From a virus: a stretch of 26,487 bases of DNA. The notes beneath the pieces are model-generated. The model was not told the origin of the DNA, ran no database searches, and saw only the letters and a program-made list of their open reading frames with translations. Shown piece after piece: positions 1,158 to 5,751 of this stretch; the first letter of the stretch is position 1, and every line of letters begins with the position of its first letter. Location: the IMG/VR virus record IMGVR_UViG_3300028196_000074, positions 1 through 26,487 of that record; one strand, given 5' to 3'. A program made the position numbers and the translations under genes.

Positions 1158-1332
1158 CCTTAGTTTTATTTAAACGTTCAACTGCTTTAATTATCTTATC
1201 ACAATTTTCAATAGAGGCCTCTAATTCAGAATCGTCTGAGTAATTTAGACTCCATCTACCATCTTGTAACATCTCAAAATCTTCCTTTAGGAATTTGATT
1301 CTGTTTAGTATTTCTTTTAAATCTGTATCCAT
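1138..1332 (-). CDS. Hypothetical helical protein, 64 aa
   Basis: Mostly charged helix: an N-terminal amphipathic stretch (LKEILNRIKFLKEDFEML) and a C-terminal one (ENCDKIIKAVERLNKTKDGK), separated by a short DGRWSLNY linker. No domain recognised. The start overlaps the stop of the preceding gene by one base (TAATG at 1332), and its 3' end overlaps the SWIM gene by 20 bases, so it sits in the middle of a coupled three- or four-gene unit (1628 to 895). Overlap on both sides and uninterrupted frame use support it as real. Confidence 0.7.
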   Translation of the reverse strand: MDTDLKEILNRIKFLKEDFEMLQDGRWSLNYSDDSELEASIENCDKIIKAVERLNKTKDGKVDV

Positions 1333-1628
1333 TACTCTGTTCTTAATAGTGAATAAAGTAATTCCGAATCCAATACGGATGGTTGAACTATTTCCAACTC
1401 ATGTTCCATATACTCAAACTTTTCGTAATCGTTTGATTGAGATGCCACAATCTCTGTAAGATGAGATTCTAACTTTGTTGAATACATTACCATATCCGAA
1501 TCTACTTCGATTTCGAAGGTATGACCCCCCTTTGGCTTCCAACTCTGTGGACAATCGCCATTACCATCCCAATTATGGGCTCCGTAATTCTCATAGAACT
1601 GAGAATGAATTTTTAATTTACTTTTCAT
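1332..1628 (-). CDS. Conserved phage hypothetical protein, 98 aa
   Basis: The N-terminal half contains QFYENYGAHNWDG followed by CPQSWKPKGGHTFEIEV. I recall a similar Q-F-x-E-N-Y-G-A-H-x-W-D-G...C-P-Q-x-W-K-x-K-G-G pattern from small proteins of other tailed phages, without a known function. The C-terminal half is acidic and helical (SNDYEKFEYMEHELEIVQPS). First gene of the small coupled unit running to 895. The leader before the ATG is A-rich with no Shine-Dalgarno sequence. The family match is from memory and unverified; that it is a coding gene is well supported by length and context. Confidence 0.75.
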   Translation of the reverse strand: MKSKLKIHSQFYENYGAHNWDGNGDCPQSWKPKGGHTFEIEVDSDMVMYSTKLESHLTEIVASQSNDYEKFEYMEHELEIVQPSVLDSELLYSLLRTE

Positions 1629-1729
1629 AACTTTTTATTTTTTATTGTTTAACAAAGCCGTAAAAAGATTTTTACCCTTAAAAATATTGATAAAAATAAT
1701 ATTATCTTGATAAAATGGGTTTTACCCCA
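1629..1729 (-). promoter_or_regulatory. Intergenic regulatory region with direct repeats and a near-palindrome
   Basis: Very AT-rich gap before the gene starting at 1628. It lacks the TTTGG-N19-TATATTA promoter found beside neighbouring genes. On the plus strand it holds two copies of TTGATAAAA (1687-1695 and 1707-1715), exactly 20 bp apart (about two helical turns), and a 16-bp near-palindrome GTAAAAAGATTTTTAC at 1660-1675. These could be binding sites of a regulator, or chance in AT-rich DNA. No promoter can be named here with confidence. Confidence 0.35.
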
Positions 1730-1731
1730 TT
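1714..1731 (-). terminator. Weak stem-loop at the stop of the 90-aa gene
   Basis: Five to six base pairs (ATGGG/CCCAT, plus an A-T) around a six-base loop, overlapping the stop codon at 1730 and followed in the sense strand by TTTTAT. It is short for an intrinsic terminator, so read-through is likely. Confidence 0.35.
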
Positions 1732-2002
1732 ATTTTACTAATTCTACCATTGAAAGAGGAACGTTGTAAGAACCAACTCCATTTAACACTTTGATTACAC
1801 ACTTAGTTCTGTTGATTTTCTCAACTCTACATTGCTTACCAATCATCTTACGGTGGTTAACTTTTACATTAGCCCCAACATAAAGTTGTTGTTTTGTTTC
1901 GTAACCGACCATAGCCTTTTTATTGTTGATGGTGGTAACTACCATTGAGTTTAGATTTCTCAACTCTTCGATTGTCATCTGATTTAATTCTGAATAATTC
2001 AT
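1730..2002 (-). CDS. Small basic protein with an SH3/KOW-like half, 90 aa
   Basis: N-terminal 30 residues form a helix (MTIEELRNLNSMVVTTINNK). The C-terminal part (LYVGANVKVNHRKMIGKQCR then VEKINRTKCVIKVLNGVGSY and NVPLSMVELVK) has alternating hydrophobic residues and glycines in the order expected of a small beta-barrel of KOW/SH3 type, in which a G-A-N-V-K-V-N-H-x-K-x-x-G-K segment would form the first strands. Such folds often bind nucleic acid or ribosomal and transcription proteins; this is inference. It has its own promoter (2055-2110) and an A-rich leader. The family recurs in T4-like phage genomes as I recall, without assigned role. Confidence 0.75.
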   Translation of the reverse strand: MNYSELNQMTIEELRNLNSMVVTTINNKKAMVGYETKQQLYVGANVKVNHRKMIGKQCRVEKINRTKCVIKVLNGVGSYNVPLSMVELVK

Positions 2003-2054
2003 TTGTTTAATTTTTAATTTTCAATTGAGTTAATACCTAACCCTTATTACCCTA

Positions 2055-2110
2055 CTAATATACGACTATTTATTGGATTTACCAAATTTTTAATGTTAAG
2101 AAATTGTTAA
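2055..2110 (-). promoter_or_regulatory. Accessory-gene promoter with tandem TTAACA boxes (for the gene at 2002)
   Basis: Sense strand: -33 element TTTGG (2086-2082), 19-base spacer, -7 element TATATTAG (2062-2055). Upstream are two TTAACA boxes, 2110-2105 and 2099-2094 (the latter TTAACAT to 2093), 11 bases apart. Spacing and boxes fit the Bacteroidota consensus TTG-N19..21-TAnnTTTG with one mismatch. The -7 box is about 53 bases before the ATG. The segment is nearly duplicated at 2881-2950. Confidence 0.6.
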
Positions 2111-2112
2111 AT

Positions 2113-2445
2113 TTAATATCCAACAAAATCAATAGTAACACAATCAGTAACGATACCTTGCTTAACACTCCAATCCCACTCTTCGTTCAACCAATAGTTT
2201 TGAACATTCTCTAACTCTTTCAAACACTCATCATACAACTCTTCGATTTCGTAACCATCTCCAAATTTGACACCACCACATAGTGTTACCAATTCGTTTA
2301 GTTTATCGAAATCATCTTTGTTCTTTTCTATCTGAATTTTGATTTCAGCTTTCATCAAATCGGAAACGGAATCGTTCCAATTGTACATCTCATTAGACCA
2401 AGGTTTTACTACTTTAGGTTTTTCGGTATTTATCATATTTTTCAT
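2113..2445 (-). CDS. Hypothetical acidic protein, 110 aa
   Basis: No domain recognised. Charged and helical through residues 25-60 (DSVSDLMKAEIKIQIEKNKD), with aromatic-rich ends (KPWSNEMYNWND near the start; NYWLNEEWDWSVKQG near the end). One cysteine pair is too far apart for a finger. Single-gene unit with its own promoter (2464-2519) and the next gene's promoter starting right after its stop. The separate promoter and position among early-type genes suggest a host-takeover or accessory role, which is inference. Confidence 0.7.
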   Translation of the reverse strand: MKNMINTEKPKVVKPWSNEMYNWNDSVSDLMKAEIKIQIEKNKDDFDKLNELVTLCGGVKFGDGYEIEELYDECLKELENVQNYWLNEEWDWSVKQGIVTDCVTIDFVGY

Positions 2446-2463
2446 CTCTTAATTATTACAGTA

Positions 2464-2519
2464 CTAATATAGTGATATTATTTCAATTATCCAAATTTTT
2501 TATGTTAAATAAATGTTAA
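2464..2519 (-). promoter_or_regulatory. Accessory-gene promoter with tandem TTAACA boxes (for the gene at 2445)
   Basis: TTTGG at 2495-2491, 19-base spacer, TATATTAG at 2471-2464; two TTAACAT boxes at 2519-2513 and 2508-2502, again 11 bases apart. The spacer sequence differs from the other two copies while boxes and spacing are kept, which points to function rather than recent duplication. The upstream TTAACAT box overlaps the stop codon of the preceding gene. Confidence 0.6.
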
Positions 2520-2848
2520 ATTCCACTTTCCATTCTCTGAACCATATTGTGGTGTTCAGCTTCTGAATACCCAACTATTGATAACGATGGAGTAAATTTG
2601 GTTTCAAACTTACCACCGGCGTATTTCCAAATCACATTATCAATGAAATCTTTCAACATATAAGTTCCATCAGAAGAACCAAACCCCTGGCCCTCATCCC
2701 AATCGTTAGTCCATTCTTCAGCAACTTCCATTGCGATTTCTAACAAATCCCATTGAGGAATTTCTTCATTTTTTACCATTTCATTAAAACCAGCGATGTA
2801 TCCTTTCGCTTTGAAAACTAAACTTTGTGGGTCAACTAAATATCTCAT
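2516..2848 (-). CDS. Hypothetical protein, 110 aa
   Basis: Contains VFKAKGYIAGFNEMV near the start, a helical acidic segment (LLEIAMEVAEEWTNDWDEG), then a glycine-rich turn (QGFGSSDGTYMLKDFID). No catalytic motif recognised and no membrane segment. Transcribed alone from the promoter at 2895-2950. Its stop TAA is embedded in the TTAACA box of the next promoter, so gene end and control region have been packed together. Function unknown. Confidence 0.7.
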   Translation of the reverse strand: MRYLVDPQSLVFKAKGYIAGFNEMVKNEEIPQWDLLEIAMEVAEEWTNDWDEGQGFGSSDGTYMLKDFIDNVIWKYAGGKFETKFTPSLSIVGYSEAEHHNMVQRMESGI

Positions 2849-2880
2849 AACTTTTTAATTTTTAGTTGGGGTAGATTAAC

Positions 2881-2950
2881 CCCTTATTACCCTACTAATA
2901 TACGATGATTAGTTGGATTTACCAAATTTTTAATGTTAAGAAATTGTTAA
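2881..2950 (-). repeat. Second copy of a near-identical promoter repeat (first copy 2041-2110)
   Basis: This 70-bp segment and 2041-2110 match over their first 25 bases and most of the last 40; differences are confined to a short block in the promoter spacer. Both lie in front of unrelated genes, so this is a mobile or recombining promoter cassette rather than a gene duplication. Confidence 0.8.
2895..2950 (-). promoter_or_regulatory. Accessory-gene promoter with tandem TTAACA boxes (for the gene at 2848)
   Basis: TTTGG at 2926-2922, 19-base spacer, TATATTAG at 2902-2895; TTAACA boxes at 2950-2945 and 2939-2934. The leader to the ATG at 2848 is about 45 bases, A-rich near the start codon (AAAAATTAAAAAGTTATG) and without a Shine-Dalgarno sequence. 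Confidence 0.6.
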
Positions 2951-2953
2951 GTT

Positions 2954-3544
2954 TTATGAAAATTCTCTGAAATCGGTTATGTAGTCATTCAATGATGGGT
3001 AATCTTCCGATTTTAGCAAGGTAGTTTGTCGGTTTGTATTTATGATATCATCCATATTACCTATAAGTCTCCATCTTATTTTGAATTTCTTCCAAAGAAT
3101 CTTATCTAACCCATCGTCTGTTCCAACATTATCAAAATCATCTTTTGTTAATTCTAATATGTTATCATCATTTACTTTTTGAGCAAAGTATCGTTCCATC
3201 CAACCTCGTTTTCTATCTTTATCAGTTGGATTAATTTGACGTGGGTTTGGGGTAATTGATTTTTTAATTTCTATATTTTTAATAGCATCATACTCAAAGT
3301 TTTTAGTAAAATCAATACCAATCTCATTTTGTTGGTTTATGATATTAACATCTACATATGGTATTAAGATTTTTGATTTACCATCTACATAGGATGGTTC
3401 TGAAAATACCTCATCAGTACTATATCTATGGTATTGTCCAATATACTCGGTAGTATCTTTAAACATCCACTCTTTGCCCTTAGTTATTAAACCATTGGTT
3501 ATCTGTGCTTTAGTGTAGTATATGCGTTTTCGTTTATCAGGCAT
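2954..3544 (-). CDS. Putative virion/baseplate-associated protein, 196 aa
   Basis: Starts MPDKRKRIYYTKAQITNGLI and continues TKGKEWMFKDTTEYIGQYHR then SYVDGKSKILIPY. I recall this Y-Y-T-K-x-Q-I-x-N-G-L...E-Y-I-G-x-Y-H...K-L-I-P pattern in proteins encoded beside baseplate genes of marine T4-like phages, with no defined role. The reading frame extends 13 codons further up to an ATG at 3583, but the ATG at 3544 forms a TAATG overlap with the stop of the hub gene, the joint used at several other places here, and the family pattern begins there. I chose 3544. Last gene of the tail operon; a soluble structural or assembly role is inferred. Confidence 0.75.
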   Translation of the reverse strand: MPDKRKRIYYTKAQITNGLITKGKEWMFKDTTEYIGQYHRYSTDEVFSEPSYVDGKSKILIPYVDVNIINQQNEIGIDFTKNFEYDAIKNIEIKKSITPNPRQINPTDKDRKRGWMERYFAQKVNDDNILELTKDDFDNVGTDDGLDKILWKKFKIRWRLIGNMDDIINTNRQTTLLKSEDYPSLNDYITDFREFS

Positions 3545-5451
3545 TACCGAATCCTCATTACAGTACCTAGTGAAGTTTCCCAATCACCTTGGCAATCAAA
3601 TGAATGCTCAACTGATATAACACTAAAAGATACTTTTTTGTTTTTGTAGTTACCTGGTAATCTATCAACTGTAATTGGTGACATATATGTAATTCCACCA
3701 ATACCATCAAGAGTAACAGATAAGTTTAACAATAGTGGTAATTCAGAAAATGCACCTTGAGAAAATGGTGTTTTATCTGGATTTCTAGATATAAAAGTTG
3801 ACATTGAATTTCGATATGCCGAACTTCTCTCTGGAGTATACCCTTCCGCACCAAATGACTGCTTTGCAGTTAATAACTTTTGTTCTGTATCATTTGTAGC
3901 TGATTTTGCTTTTGCTGCTTCAACCGCGGCTGCAAGCTTAGCGTCATCAGGATATAAACTTGTGAGTTTGCTTACATTTGATGTCCCATCTTCAATTGCT
4001 TTGGTTGACGCTAATATTAACAAATCTGAGTCAAAATCACTTTCTAATGAAATACTTCTAACACCAATTGACTTTTCCCCAATTGCGGAGAATGAATGTG
4101 GGTCTGGAAACGACTCACTTGCGTTAATTACTGTGTTTCTGTTTATAATAAGAATTGTATCTGTTTCGGATTTTGAGTCTGGTTCAACTTTCGCGGGCAT
4201 CAATTTTGGATTAACTAAATTACCAGTTTCCGTATTTATCCCTTTAAATATTTTATTCAAAATGGATGTGATTTTAACTGACTGAGTTTTAATGTCGCTC
4301 TCATCATCTGCATCGGTTTGTAAATCATCAAAAATCTTTTGAATAACATCTATTGATACTAATATAGAGCCAAGTGTATGGGATGTGTCAGTTAATGTGG
4401 AACTCCAATCCAAACTACCACCTGCTTCATTATACTGGCAAGCTGCACCTTGTAAAACAAACTTATCTGGTGCTGCAGAACCAAATCCTTTATGGTATTC
4501 ATATTTCCCAGCTGTTCCTGCTGCAAATTCAAGTTTAATAGGAGCAGTACCACCACTTCCAAGATACCCATTAAAATAATCTATTAAAGAACCCAATCGT
4601 ATATAAGGAACAAATATAGAATCTTCAAATGTAAAAAACTCACCATTTTCAATGTTACCTGTATAAAAATCTAATTTTTGTTGGAATGTGGTTGCTGATG
4701 CTTCTGATGTCTTTTGTTCAATGTCACCGTCACCCACGTCCGCGTCTGATGCATCCTCATCTGCTTCGATACCAAATGCTTTTTTATATAATGTTTTTAA
4801 TTGGGAAATCAAATCGCTTTCGGTGTCTTCACCCTCGTTATTTGGTTCTTTTTCTGCCGTTTCAGTACCCCCTGCAGTCTGTGAAAAAAGTGCACTTGCT
4901 GAAATAGCTTTTACATTACAACTATATGCCCCATCCGATTCAATTGAGAAACTAAAATTATAAACGTTAGTATCTACAAACCCATTTGTTACACCATCAG
5001 CTGGGTTTGTATGGTCTCTCCAACCATATTCTATTTTCATATTAGCACCTAGAATAAAAAATGATTTTTGAACTTTTTCTAATTGTGCTAATGTGTATAC
5101 TTTGAAAGAAACCTCAGTTTCATAAATTAACGCCTCTGTGTAATCCCCACCACCATTATTAGTTATTTTTACAGATGTTAGAATAGGCTTAAACCTACGA
5201 ATAGTACCCTCAGTATCATACAATGATGTACCACCACCTGTTGGTGCAGTTGAATCTCCTATTTTCATCTCAGCTGCGGTAAGTACGGTGCCAGTTTCAC
5301 CTGCAATTATACTTACATTGACATAGCAATATTTTTTGTAATTCCAATATTTAAAAAAATCATCTCTGAGTTCGTTTGCACCTTCTCTACGTTTTAACTC
5401 ATCGGCAACGGCGGACGGGAATATTGGATTTAAATTTGGGGCTTCTGCCAT
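3544..5451 (-). CDS. Baseplate hub protein candidate (gp27/gpD-like role), 635 aa
   Basis: The N-terminal third contains a beta-rich segment (TSVKITNNGGGDYTEALIYE onward to YTLAQLEKVQKSFFILGANM and KIEYGW). The phrase x-F-F-x-L-G-x-x-M-x-x-E-Y-G-W is what I expect in hub-type proteins of T4-like phages. The C-terminus (VSFSVISVEHSFDCQGDWET) resembles the closing strands of phage hub domains, where S-V-x-H...G-x-W-x-T is typical. Between them, about residues 195-260, lies an acidic low-complexity insert rich in Asp and Glu. It follows the LysM protein by 3 bases and is joined to the next gene by TAATG, inside the tail module. I infer the central hub under the tail tube. No lysozyme domain is visible, unlike T4 gp5. 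Confidence 0.6.
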   Translation of the reverse strand: MAEAPNLNPIFPSAVADELKRREGANELRDDFFKYWNYKKYCYVNVSIIAGETGTVLTAAEMKIGDSTAPTGGGTSLYDTEGTIRRFKPILTSVKITNNGGGDYTEALIYETEVSFKVYTLAQLEKVQKSFFILGANMKIEYGWRDHTNPADGVTNGFVDTNVYNFSFSIESDGAYSCNVKAISASALFSQTAGGTETAEKEPNNEGEDTESDLISQLKTLYKKAFGIEADEDASDADVGDGDIEQKTSEASATTFQQKLDFYTGNIENGEFFTFEDSIFVPYIRLGSLIDYFNGYLGSGGTAPIKLEFAAGTAGKYEYHKGFGSAAPDKFVLQGAACQYNEAGGSLDWSSTLTDTSHTLGSILVSIDVIQKIFDDLQTDADDESDIKTQSVKITSILNKIFKGINTETGNLVNPKLMPAKVEPDSKSETDTILIINRNTVINASESFPDPHSFSAIGEKSIGVRSISLESDFDSDLLILASTKAIEDGTSNVSKLTSLYPDDAKLAAAVEAAKAKSATNDTEQKLLTAKQSFGAEGYTPERSSAYRNSMSTFISRNPDKTPFSQGAFSELPLLLNLSVTLDGIGGITYMSPITVDRLPGNYKNKKVSFSVISVEHSFDCQGDWETSLGTVMRIR

Positions 5452-5454
5452 AAC

Positions 5455-5751
5455 TTATGAATTTAGATTATTATATTCGTTTACTATTGAAATGTAGTCT
5501 TTTGGGATTCTTATTTGAGCTCCTATTGGTACTGATAAATCACCCTTACCTATACCATTCGCTCTTGCTATAATCCACCACAATCTACTATTAGTATAAT
5601 ATTTGTATGCAAGTGAATCTAATCTATCACCTTGTCTGCCTATTATATAAATATCATTTGATTTTTTATCAATCATAGGATATTTAACGGTTGAACGATA
5701 TCGTTTACCATTCTCATTTTTTAAAATGTCTATATCTTTATATCTGTTCAT
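5455..5751 (-). CDS. LysM-domain baseplate protein (gp53-like), 98 aa
   Basis: Residues about 34-83 form a LysM-type module: Y-I-I-G-R-Q-G-D-R-L-D-S-L-A-Y-K-Y-Y, then LWWIIARANGI and V-P-I-G-A-Q-I-R-I-P. LysM modules bind glycans such as peptidoglycan, and T4-like and Mu/P2-like baseplates carry small LysM proteins (gp53, gpX) between hub and wedge. Here it lies between the tube-initiator-like protein (13 bases upstream) and the hub (3 bases downstream), which supports a baseplate place. No signal peptide, as expected of a virion part. Whether it binds glycan or only keeps the fold for assembly cannot be read from the sequence. Confidence 0.75.
   Translation of the reverse strand: MNRYKDIDILKNENGKRYRSTVKYPMIDKKSNDIYIIGRQGDRLDSLAYKYYTNSRLWWIIARANGIGKGDLSVPIGAQIRIPKDYISIVNEYNNLNS

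Follow-up and report, generated by a model that had tools for sequence, protein, structure and literature searches.

The PHO box of Escherichia coli replaces the -35 element of the promoter, and the consensus of the Bacillus subtilis regulator PhoP is TT(A/T/C)ACA-N5-TT(A/T/C)ACA. In the middle promoters of phage T4, a MotA box at -30 takes the place of the -35 element, MotA and AsiA being encoded by the phage. The PHO box has been described as two direct repeats of 11 nt, each with seven conserved and four loose nucleotides, and PhoB without its receiver domain as a constitutive DNA binder (PMC4415409). Regulators of the OmpR/PhoB family bind direct repeats with strict spacing; PhoP of Mycobacterium tuberculosis, for example, recognises 7-bp repeats with a strict 4-bp spacer (PMC4832192). 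The promoters of the Bacteroidota (sigma-ABfr type) consist of a -33 TTTG and a -7 TANNTTTG element, some 19-21 bp apart. In Flavobacterium johnsoniae, the -7 element spans -12 to -5, the start lies 4-5 nt past it and the -33 element is described as barely evident (PMC6847099).

An element combining features of these systems is present in a 26.5-kb virus fragment, the whole of which is referred to here as the window. Since it encodes a tail sheath (E 1.4e-70) and PhoH (E 1.1e-60), it is read as part of a T4-like myovirus. Within the phage collection, its sheath is most similar to those of a Microcystis phage (58.5%), an unannotated record and the immuto phages of Flavobacterium. The sheath of this Microcystis phage, Mel-JY01 (PP395634), is closer to that of the window than is that of any listed Flavobacterium phage, and its recorded host may be worth re-examining. 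No DNA match to window positions 1300-3600 was found. The related records used for comparison, G001 (178 kb), G002 (169 kb), G003 (167 kb) and G007 (266 kb), were picked for holding at least one copy of the motif.

Three promoter copies in the window

The composite TTAACA-N5-TTAACA-N7-TTTGG-N19-TATATTAG has exactly three matches in the window, at 2055-2110, 2464-2519 and 2895-2950, all on the minus strand, and none in 100 dinucleotide shuffles of it, which bears out the earlier note's claim of four elements at fixed spacings. In copy 1, the -7 element TATATTAG lies at 2055-2062, the -33 element TTTGG at 2082-2086, 19 nt before it, and the proximal and distal TTAACA boxes at 2094-2099 and 2105-2110. 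The corresponding motif matches are at 2464-2471, 2491-2495, 2503-2508 and 2514-2519 in copy 2, and at 2895-2902, 2922-2926, 2934-2939 and 2945-2950 in copy 3. The core searched for without boxes matches the window at 2055-2086, 2464-2495 and 2895-2926. When the distance between the -7 element and the start in F. johnsoniae is applied, starts are predicted at about 2050, 2459 and 2890; TTTGG would then occupy -36 to -32 and the boxes about -49 to -44 and -60 to -55. Conservation runs beyond the -7 box (TA-nn-GTAA).

The three copies are real, as the earlier note had it, but cannot count as three separate cases. Over 77 nt, copy 3 shares 92% identity with copy 1, and the two are therefore taken as a recent duplication, while copy 2 is only 71% identical to copy 1 and retains all elements, in agreement with the earlier description of a middle copy that differs in its spacer with boxes and distances unchanged. 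The window thus provides about two independent instances. The box pair alone (one mismatch allowed) is found three times against 0.82 expected, which is weak evidence within the window; the strength comes from the full composite and from the relatives. The orientation also required amendment: each copy is on the minus strand and would drive the small open reading frame on its left.

These reading frames, all on the minus strand, encode proteins of 90 aa behind copy 1 (1730-2002), 110 aa behind copy 2 (2113-2445) and 110 aa behind copy 3 (2516-2848). Orthologs of the first (59-76% identity) stand behind paired promoters in G001, G002 and G003, the second has one in G001 with a box-pair promoter (41% identity), and the third has orthologs with box-pair promoters in G002 and G007, its G001 ortholog falling below the box-pair threshold and being scored as unpaired. 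In 11 aligned regions upstream of the 90-aa gene, both boxes, TTTGG and parts of the -7 element are invariant and the spacer drifts, seven of the ten relatives aligned having come from the motif search and so not being independent. Such a pattern bears on the idea that the similarity merely reflects a recently duplicated intergenic cassette with no regulatory role. The near-identity of copies 1 and 3 is what such a duplication would leave, but copy 2 and the orthologs (seven of ten motif-derived) keep boxes and core as the spacer diverges, the geometry is conserved and, in the related phages, the promoter class is kept gene by gene; this explanation is barely credible. The 90-aa product is predicted to form a long helix and a KOW/SH3-like barrel (pLDDT 85), with Spt5/NusG KOW domains as best Foldseek matches at weak E-values (0.015).

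By sequence, the core resembles that of host promoters. In all three window copies, the -33 element and the 19-bp spacing are those of Bacteroidota promoters, and the phage promoter shares both core elements of the sigma-ABfr class. The phage GTAA sits at about the expected start, 4-5 nt after the -7 box (PMC6847099). The earlier note's view of a host-type promoter has support in the sequence through TTTGG and TAnnTT(A/T)G, which match the Bacteroidota -33 and -7 elements, and is weakened in that the -7 box of the window lineage is TATATTAG, one base off TANNTTTG, rather than TAnnTTTG. Moreover, the phage form is far stricter than host promoters: TTTGG is near-invariant, the spacer is almost always 19 and, unlike in the sigma-ABfr class, a box pair stands upstream. 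Among 41 relatives of G017, core-like matches had spacers of 17 to 21, many of them probably chance.

Distribution and geometry in viruses and bacteria

Among 2.9 million viral contigs scanned, the full composite with boxes 11 bp apart occurs in 73 stretches. Changing the box distance to 10 bp left eight and to 12 bp none, and changing the gap of 7 between box and TTTGG to 6 left 35 and to 8 none; the helically phased pair postulated in the earlier note is thus supported as a site that is both specific and phased. With a TAnnTTTG box instead, the composite occurs in 88 viral stretches. The core spacer is 19 in all 92 matches of the retrieved loci, though 18-20 was allowed; the loci L004-L076 and L164-L243 were retrieved through the motif itself, so that neither exactness there nor the motif logo is evidence.

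A looser composite was found in only seven stretches of 84,980 bacterial and archaeal genomes (GTDB, 257 Gb), and, its -7 box having been relaxed, the contrast with viruses is if anything understated. At least three of the seven appear phage-like by eye. By the same inspection, the promoters of L158 are nearly identical to those of virus record G006, L159 has a tRNA-like sequence and a DHFR-like gene beside its promoter, and L157 has the appearance of a prophage. The pair followed by TTTGG has four matches in 295 Bacteroidia genomes, two of them on the phage-like contig of G017, against none for the control, and a single box with the full core was not found in 60 Bacteroidia genomes. Pair promoters are absent from the whole immuto and Riemerella phage RAP44 genomes and from the 50 kb searched of the 213.5-kb Chryseobacterium phage MA9V-1, and among 50,697 phage records blastn found only weak matches to two of the promoters. 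In L069 (G006) and L158, an apparent tRNA gene (GCCGAAGTGGTGGAATAGGTAGACACGAGGG) immediately follows a paired promoter; the bin of contig L158 hints at Schleiferiaceae as a candidate host family.

From sequence, the composite is a genuine and widespread phage promoter class that is nearly absent from bacterial genomes, and its strict geometry and gene-by-gene conservation belong to the same level of evidence. No published description of the motif was found in the literature searched on Bacteroidetes and Flavobacterium phage promoters and on Bacteroides start sites. As far as that literature shows, the class is previously unlisted, a variant of host-type phage promoters.

The pair is borne by several phage records that appear mutually unrelated: G361 (59 kb) has no sheath gene, G008 has 287 kb and G375 is a contig of 15 kb. 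On the latter (L301), 14 paired promoters were counted, about one per two or three small genes. Such a scatter over unrelated-looking phages favours a host factor, as would be expected if the pair and the adjoining A/T tracts were a UP element for two C-terminal domains of the alpha subunits of the host RNA polymerase, giving extra-strong, immediate-early promoters of the T4 kind, which act at once after infection and need no phage protein synthesis. The pair and tracts, at -60 to -37, fit the position of the UP element (A/T-rich, -40 to -60), and T4 early promoters, described as UP/-35/TGn/-10 with extra conserved regions, likewise serve many small early genes, depend on the host sigma factor and are conserved far upstream of the -33/-35 element (PMC2988021). 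However, T4 relies on A/T-rich UP elements, which are degenerate, whereas the present class has a strict 6-mer direct repeat at 11 bp that mostly matches at 12 of 12 bases and whose spacing tolerates hardly any change. Nor did two Bacteroidia genomes show a positional TTAACA signal at their candidate host promoters (62 and 72). A UP element is thus unlikely.

Two promoter classes in related phages

Together, G001, G002, G003, G007 and the window contain 72 exact N5 pairs on the coding strand and none on the other. A strict core follows 55 of them; by eye, the other 17 are followed by a variant core, for example CTTGG or CTTGT with a -7 box. A second class consists of the same core without the pair. 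Under a wider rule, 76 paired and 56 unpaired promoters were counted in these five sequences, with 14 to 28 paired promoters per phage, and a promoter could be assigned to 72 paired-class and 40 unpaired-class genes. The boxes of most paired promoters match at 12 of 12 bases.

The class of promoter is retained by 45 of 50 reciprocal-best ortholog pairs (permuted mean 27.4, maximum 40 in 5,000 permutations). The unpaired class includes the genes for SSB, DnaB helicase, MazG, the clamp, exonuclease, primase, DNA polymerase and the prohead protease. Genes of the paired class are mostly of unknown function, together with an AAA_5/MoxR-like ATPase with a large partner (weak CobT-like similarity) and an HNH endonuclease. 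Replication genes do not fall cleanly outside the paired class, since the exonuclease gene, unpaired in G002, has the box pair in G001 and G003. No N5 pair was found around the tail-sheath genes of 80 relatives (832 kb, at loci not chosen by motif), and neither class was found in the immuto phage. Gene length does not split the classes (median 115.5 versus 163.5 aa, p = 0.09). The proposal in the earlier note that the pair coordinates accessory genes gains from this, as the pair marks one of two conserved classes and is absent around sheath genes. The composite also recurs before other genes of the related genomes, the point on which that note had staked its reading.

The distance from -7 element to start codon is 8 nt or less in 16 of the 40 unpaired-class genes and in 3 of the 72 paired-class ones (p = 2.8e-6). 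This suggests leaderless or nearly leaderless mRNAs for the unpaired-class replication genes of G001, G002, G003 and G007.

The -7 boxes also differ. In G007, the paired class has TATATTTG or TATCTTTG; in G002, the -7 boxes of paired promoters (TTAG, TTTA) are weaker than those of the bare core, and in G001 TTAG occurs in both. The difference in G002 suggests that the boxes help rather than hinder, which speaks against their being an operator for a repressor that shuts the genes off later in infection. Activation and repression alike could use a phased tandem site ahead of a complete host-type core, but the boxes lie upstream of the -33 element and not over the core, and repression is highly improbable.

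An activator unrelated to the OmpR/PhoB family, encoded by the phage or carried in the virion and analogous to T4 MotA, would make the genes delayed-early. Its site would be expected to be essentially restricted to phages and strictly spaced, as is observed, and a 72-aa helix-turn-helix-like protein is common to G001, G002, G003 and G007, with no match in the immuto phage, which lacks promoters of this kind. However, this protein, whose gene is located among those for replication, scores just 0.065 for Pfam HTH_28; the promoters retain the -33 element that T4 middle promoters lack; and MotA (PF09114) was not found in any of the four relatives, though the control was silent. Identity with T4 middle promoters is rejected on the latter two grounds, and such an activator appears improbable. 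Sigma70_r2 (PF04542) is above the cut-off in G008 only, and in 35 proteins scanned with Pfam, of which 32 are encoded behind box-pair promoters, no convincing DNA-binding domain was detected.

A terminator-like hairpin lies between boxes and -7 element in 12 of the 76 paired promoters (shuffled mean 0.3, maximum 2 in 20 runs). Its 5' arm holds the -33 box (TTTGG/CTTGG) and its T-run fills the 19-bp spacer. In other loci, the count is 6 of 180 promoters (shuffled mean 0.7), these 180 having been retrieved by motif. Besides the 12 in G001, G002, G003 and G007, nested hairpins are seen in L053, L056, L181, L219 and L220 and, by eye, in L363 near 3234; none was found in the window copies. As to terminators nested within promoters, the literature searched yielded only work on terminator efficiency. 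Upstream of structural genes lies ATA(T/C)TTATA, a candidate late promoter with eight matches between window positions 5646 and 26256, all on the minus strand (2.65 expected), seven of them 20-80 nt before the start of a structural or PhoH gene.

A candidate recogniser of the box pair

The likeliest recogniser of the TTAACA pair is a regulator of the OmpR/PhoB type, with a probability of roughly 0.45. The pair is nearly identical to the PhoP consensus of B. subtilis and, unlike the E. coli PHO box, leaves a complete -33 element in place. It is a direct repeat in a strict 11-bp register, as the counts by box distance indicate, and its units of 6+5 bp correspond to the tandem 11-nt repeats of the PHO box of E. 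coli PhoB and B. subtilis PhoP (PMC4415409).

It is proposed that each of the three window copies is a dedicated phage promoter whose full host-type core would be read by the host primary sigma factor. Directly upstream of it, the tandem repeat TTAACA-N5-TTAACA at about -60 to -44 would form a PHO-box-like site, to which a winged-helix regulator of the OmpR/PhoB family would bind as a head-to-tail dimer. By binding there, the regulator would attract RNA polymerase to accessory and host-takeover genes or stabilise it at them, and these genes would presumably be transcribed early in infection. The bare core would serve most replication genes with a detected promoter, and ATA(T/C)TTATA the structural genes. 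For the window lineage, PhoB of the host or a paralogue of it would be this regulator, while in two other pair-bearing lineages a receiver-less PhoB-like protein of the phage could take the role.

Bacterial genomes offer some context for this proposal. The pattern pair-N8-TTG has eight matches outside the phage-like contig in 198 Bacteroidia genomes, and since the reversed control has six, only the gene context of these matches speaks. Three of the eight precede phosphate-uptake genes (LTD with Porin_O_P twice, PhoU_div with PHO4 once), and two of these loci (G080, G117) are syntenic and so represent one case. The other five have no clear phosphate link, preceding genes for a TonB receptor, a CHU_C protein, RimP/NusA or DUF2807, or lying elsewhere. 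Pfam families found at these phosphate loci (pf00932, pf07396) occur in the phosphate-response table of F. johnsoniae, where OprP was not itself induced (PMC8115612). In the seven GTDB stretches with the full composite, open reading frames and two Pfam look-ups revealed no phosphate gene adjoining the promoter. The PHO reading cannot be extended to two pieces of Bacteroidia genomes, because porin and PHO4 homologs were not found in them.

Some phages carry a candidate regulator of their own. Receiver-less Trans_reg_C proteins of 136 and 127 aa are encoded by the pair-bearing G008 (L346:4801-5211) and G375 (L301:7399-7782), and with a third from L363 (5001-5381) they form a set of PhoB/RegX3-like proteins of 126-136 aa. 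The G008 protein has RegX3 (5e-13) and PhoB (2e-12) as best PDB matches, and the G375 gene is itself preceded by a pair promoter. G001, G002, G003, G007 and G361 yielded no Trans_reg_C protein, and an HMM built from the G008 and G375 proteins gave noise only in the relatives of the window. L363, found by protein and the only phage with a PhoB-like protein that was not chosen by motif, encodes a 41% identical protein and has many pair-free cores and no box pair. A phage PhoB-like protein as universal recogniser is therefore rejected for the window lineage, where none was found, and is weakened by L363.

The number of sites, 14 to 28 per phage, would be unusual for a starvation switch and counts against the PHO reading, as do the lack of a single box with full core in the 60 Bacteroidia genomes and the box pair before the exonuclease gene in G001 and G003. 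Zeng and Chisholm reportedly found in 2012 that genes of marine cyanophages use the host PhoBR system. The phage genes pstS and phoA are described in a review as upregulated in phosphorus-limited hosts (PMC6359870). In the cyanophages a few phosphate genes respond, whereas here the promoters, at 14 to 28 per phage, precede mostly unknown, non-structural genes. In its fullest form, which is doubtful, the PHO reading would mean that a clade of large marine Bacteroidota phages has wired its host-takeover genes, by 14 to 28 promoters per genome, to the phosphate-starvation regulator of the host through perfect PHO-box-like repeats on complete host-type promoters. Other phages sharing the site would carry their own always-active, receiver-less PhoB-like protein, firing it without starvation, and some promoters would have an intrinsic terminator folded into the spacer between -33 and -7.

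Little is known of the promoters of large uncultured phages of the Bacteroidota. The signature described here, present in at least 73 viral stretches, sets apparent takeover genes apart from those for replication and structure in raw metagenomes. Should the pair be a PHO box, entire programmes of phage expression, beyond a few nutrient genes, would be gated by the phosphate state of the host, and viral attack on marine Bacteroidota would be linked to phosphorus supply.
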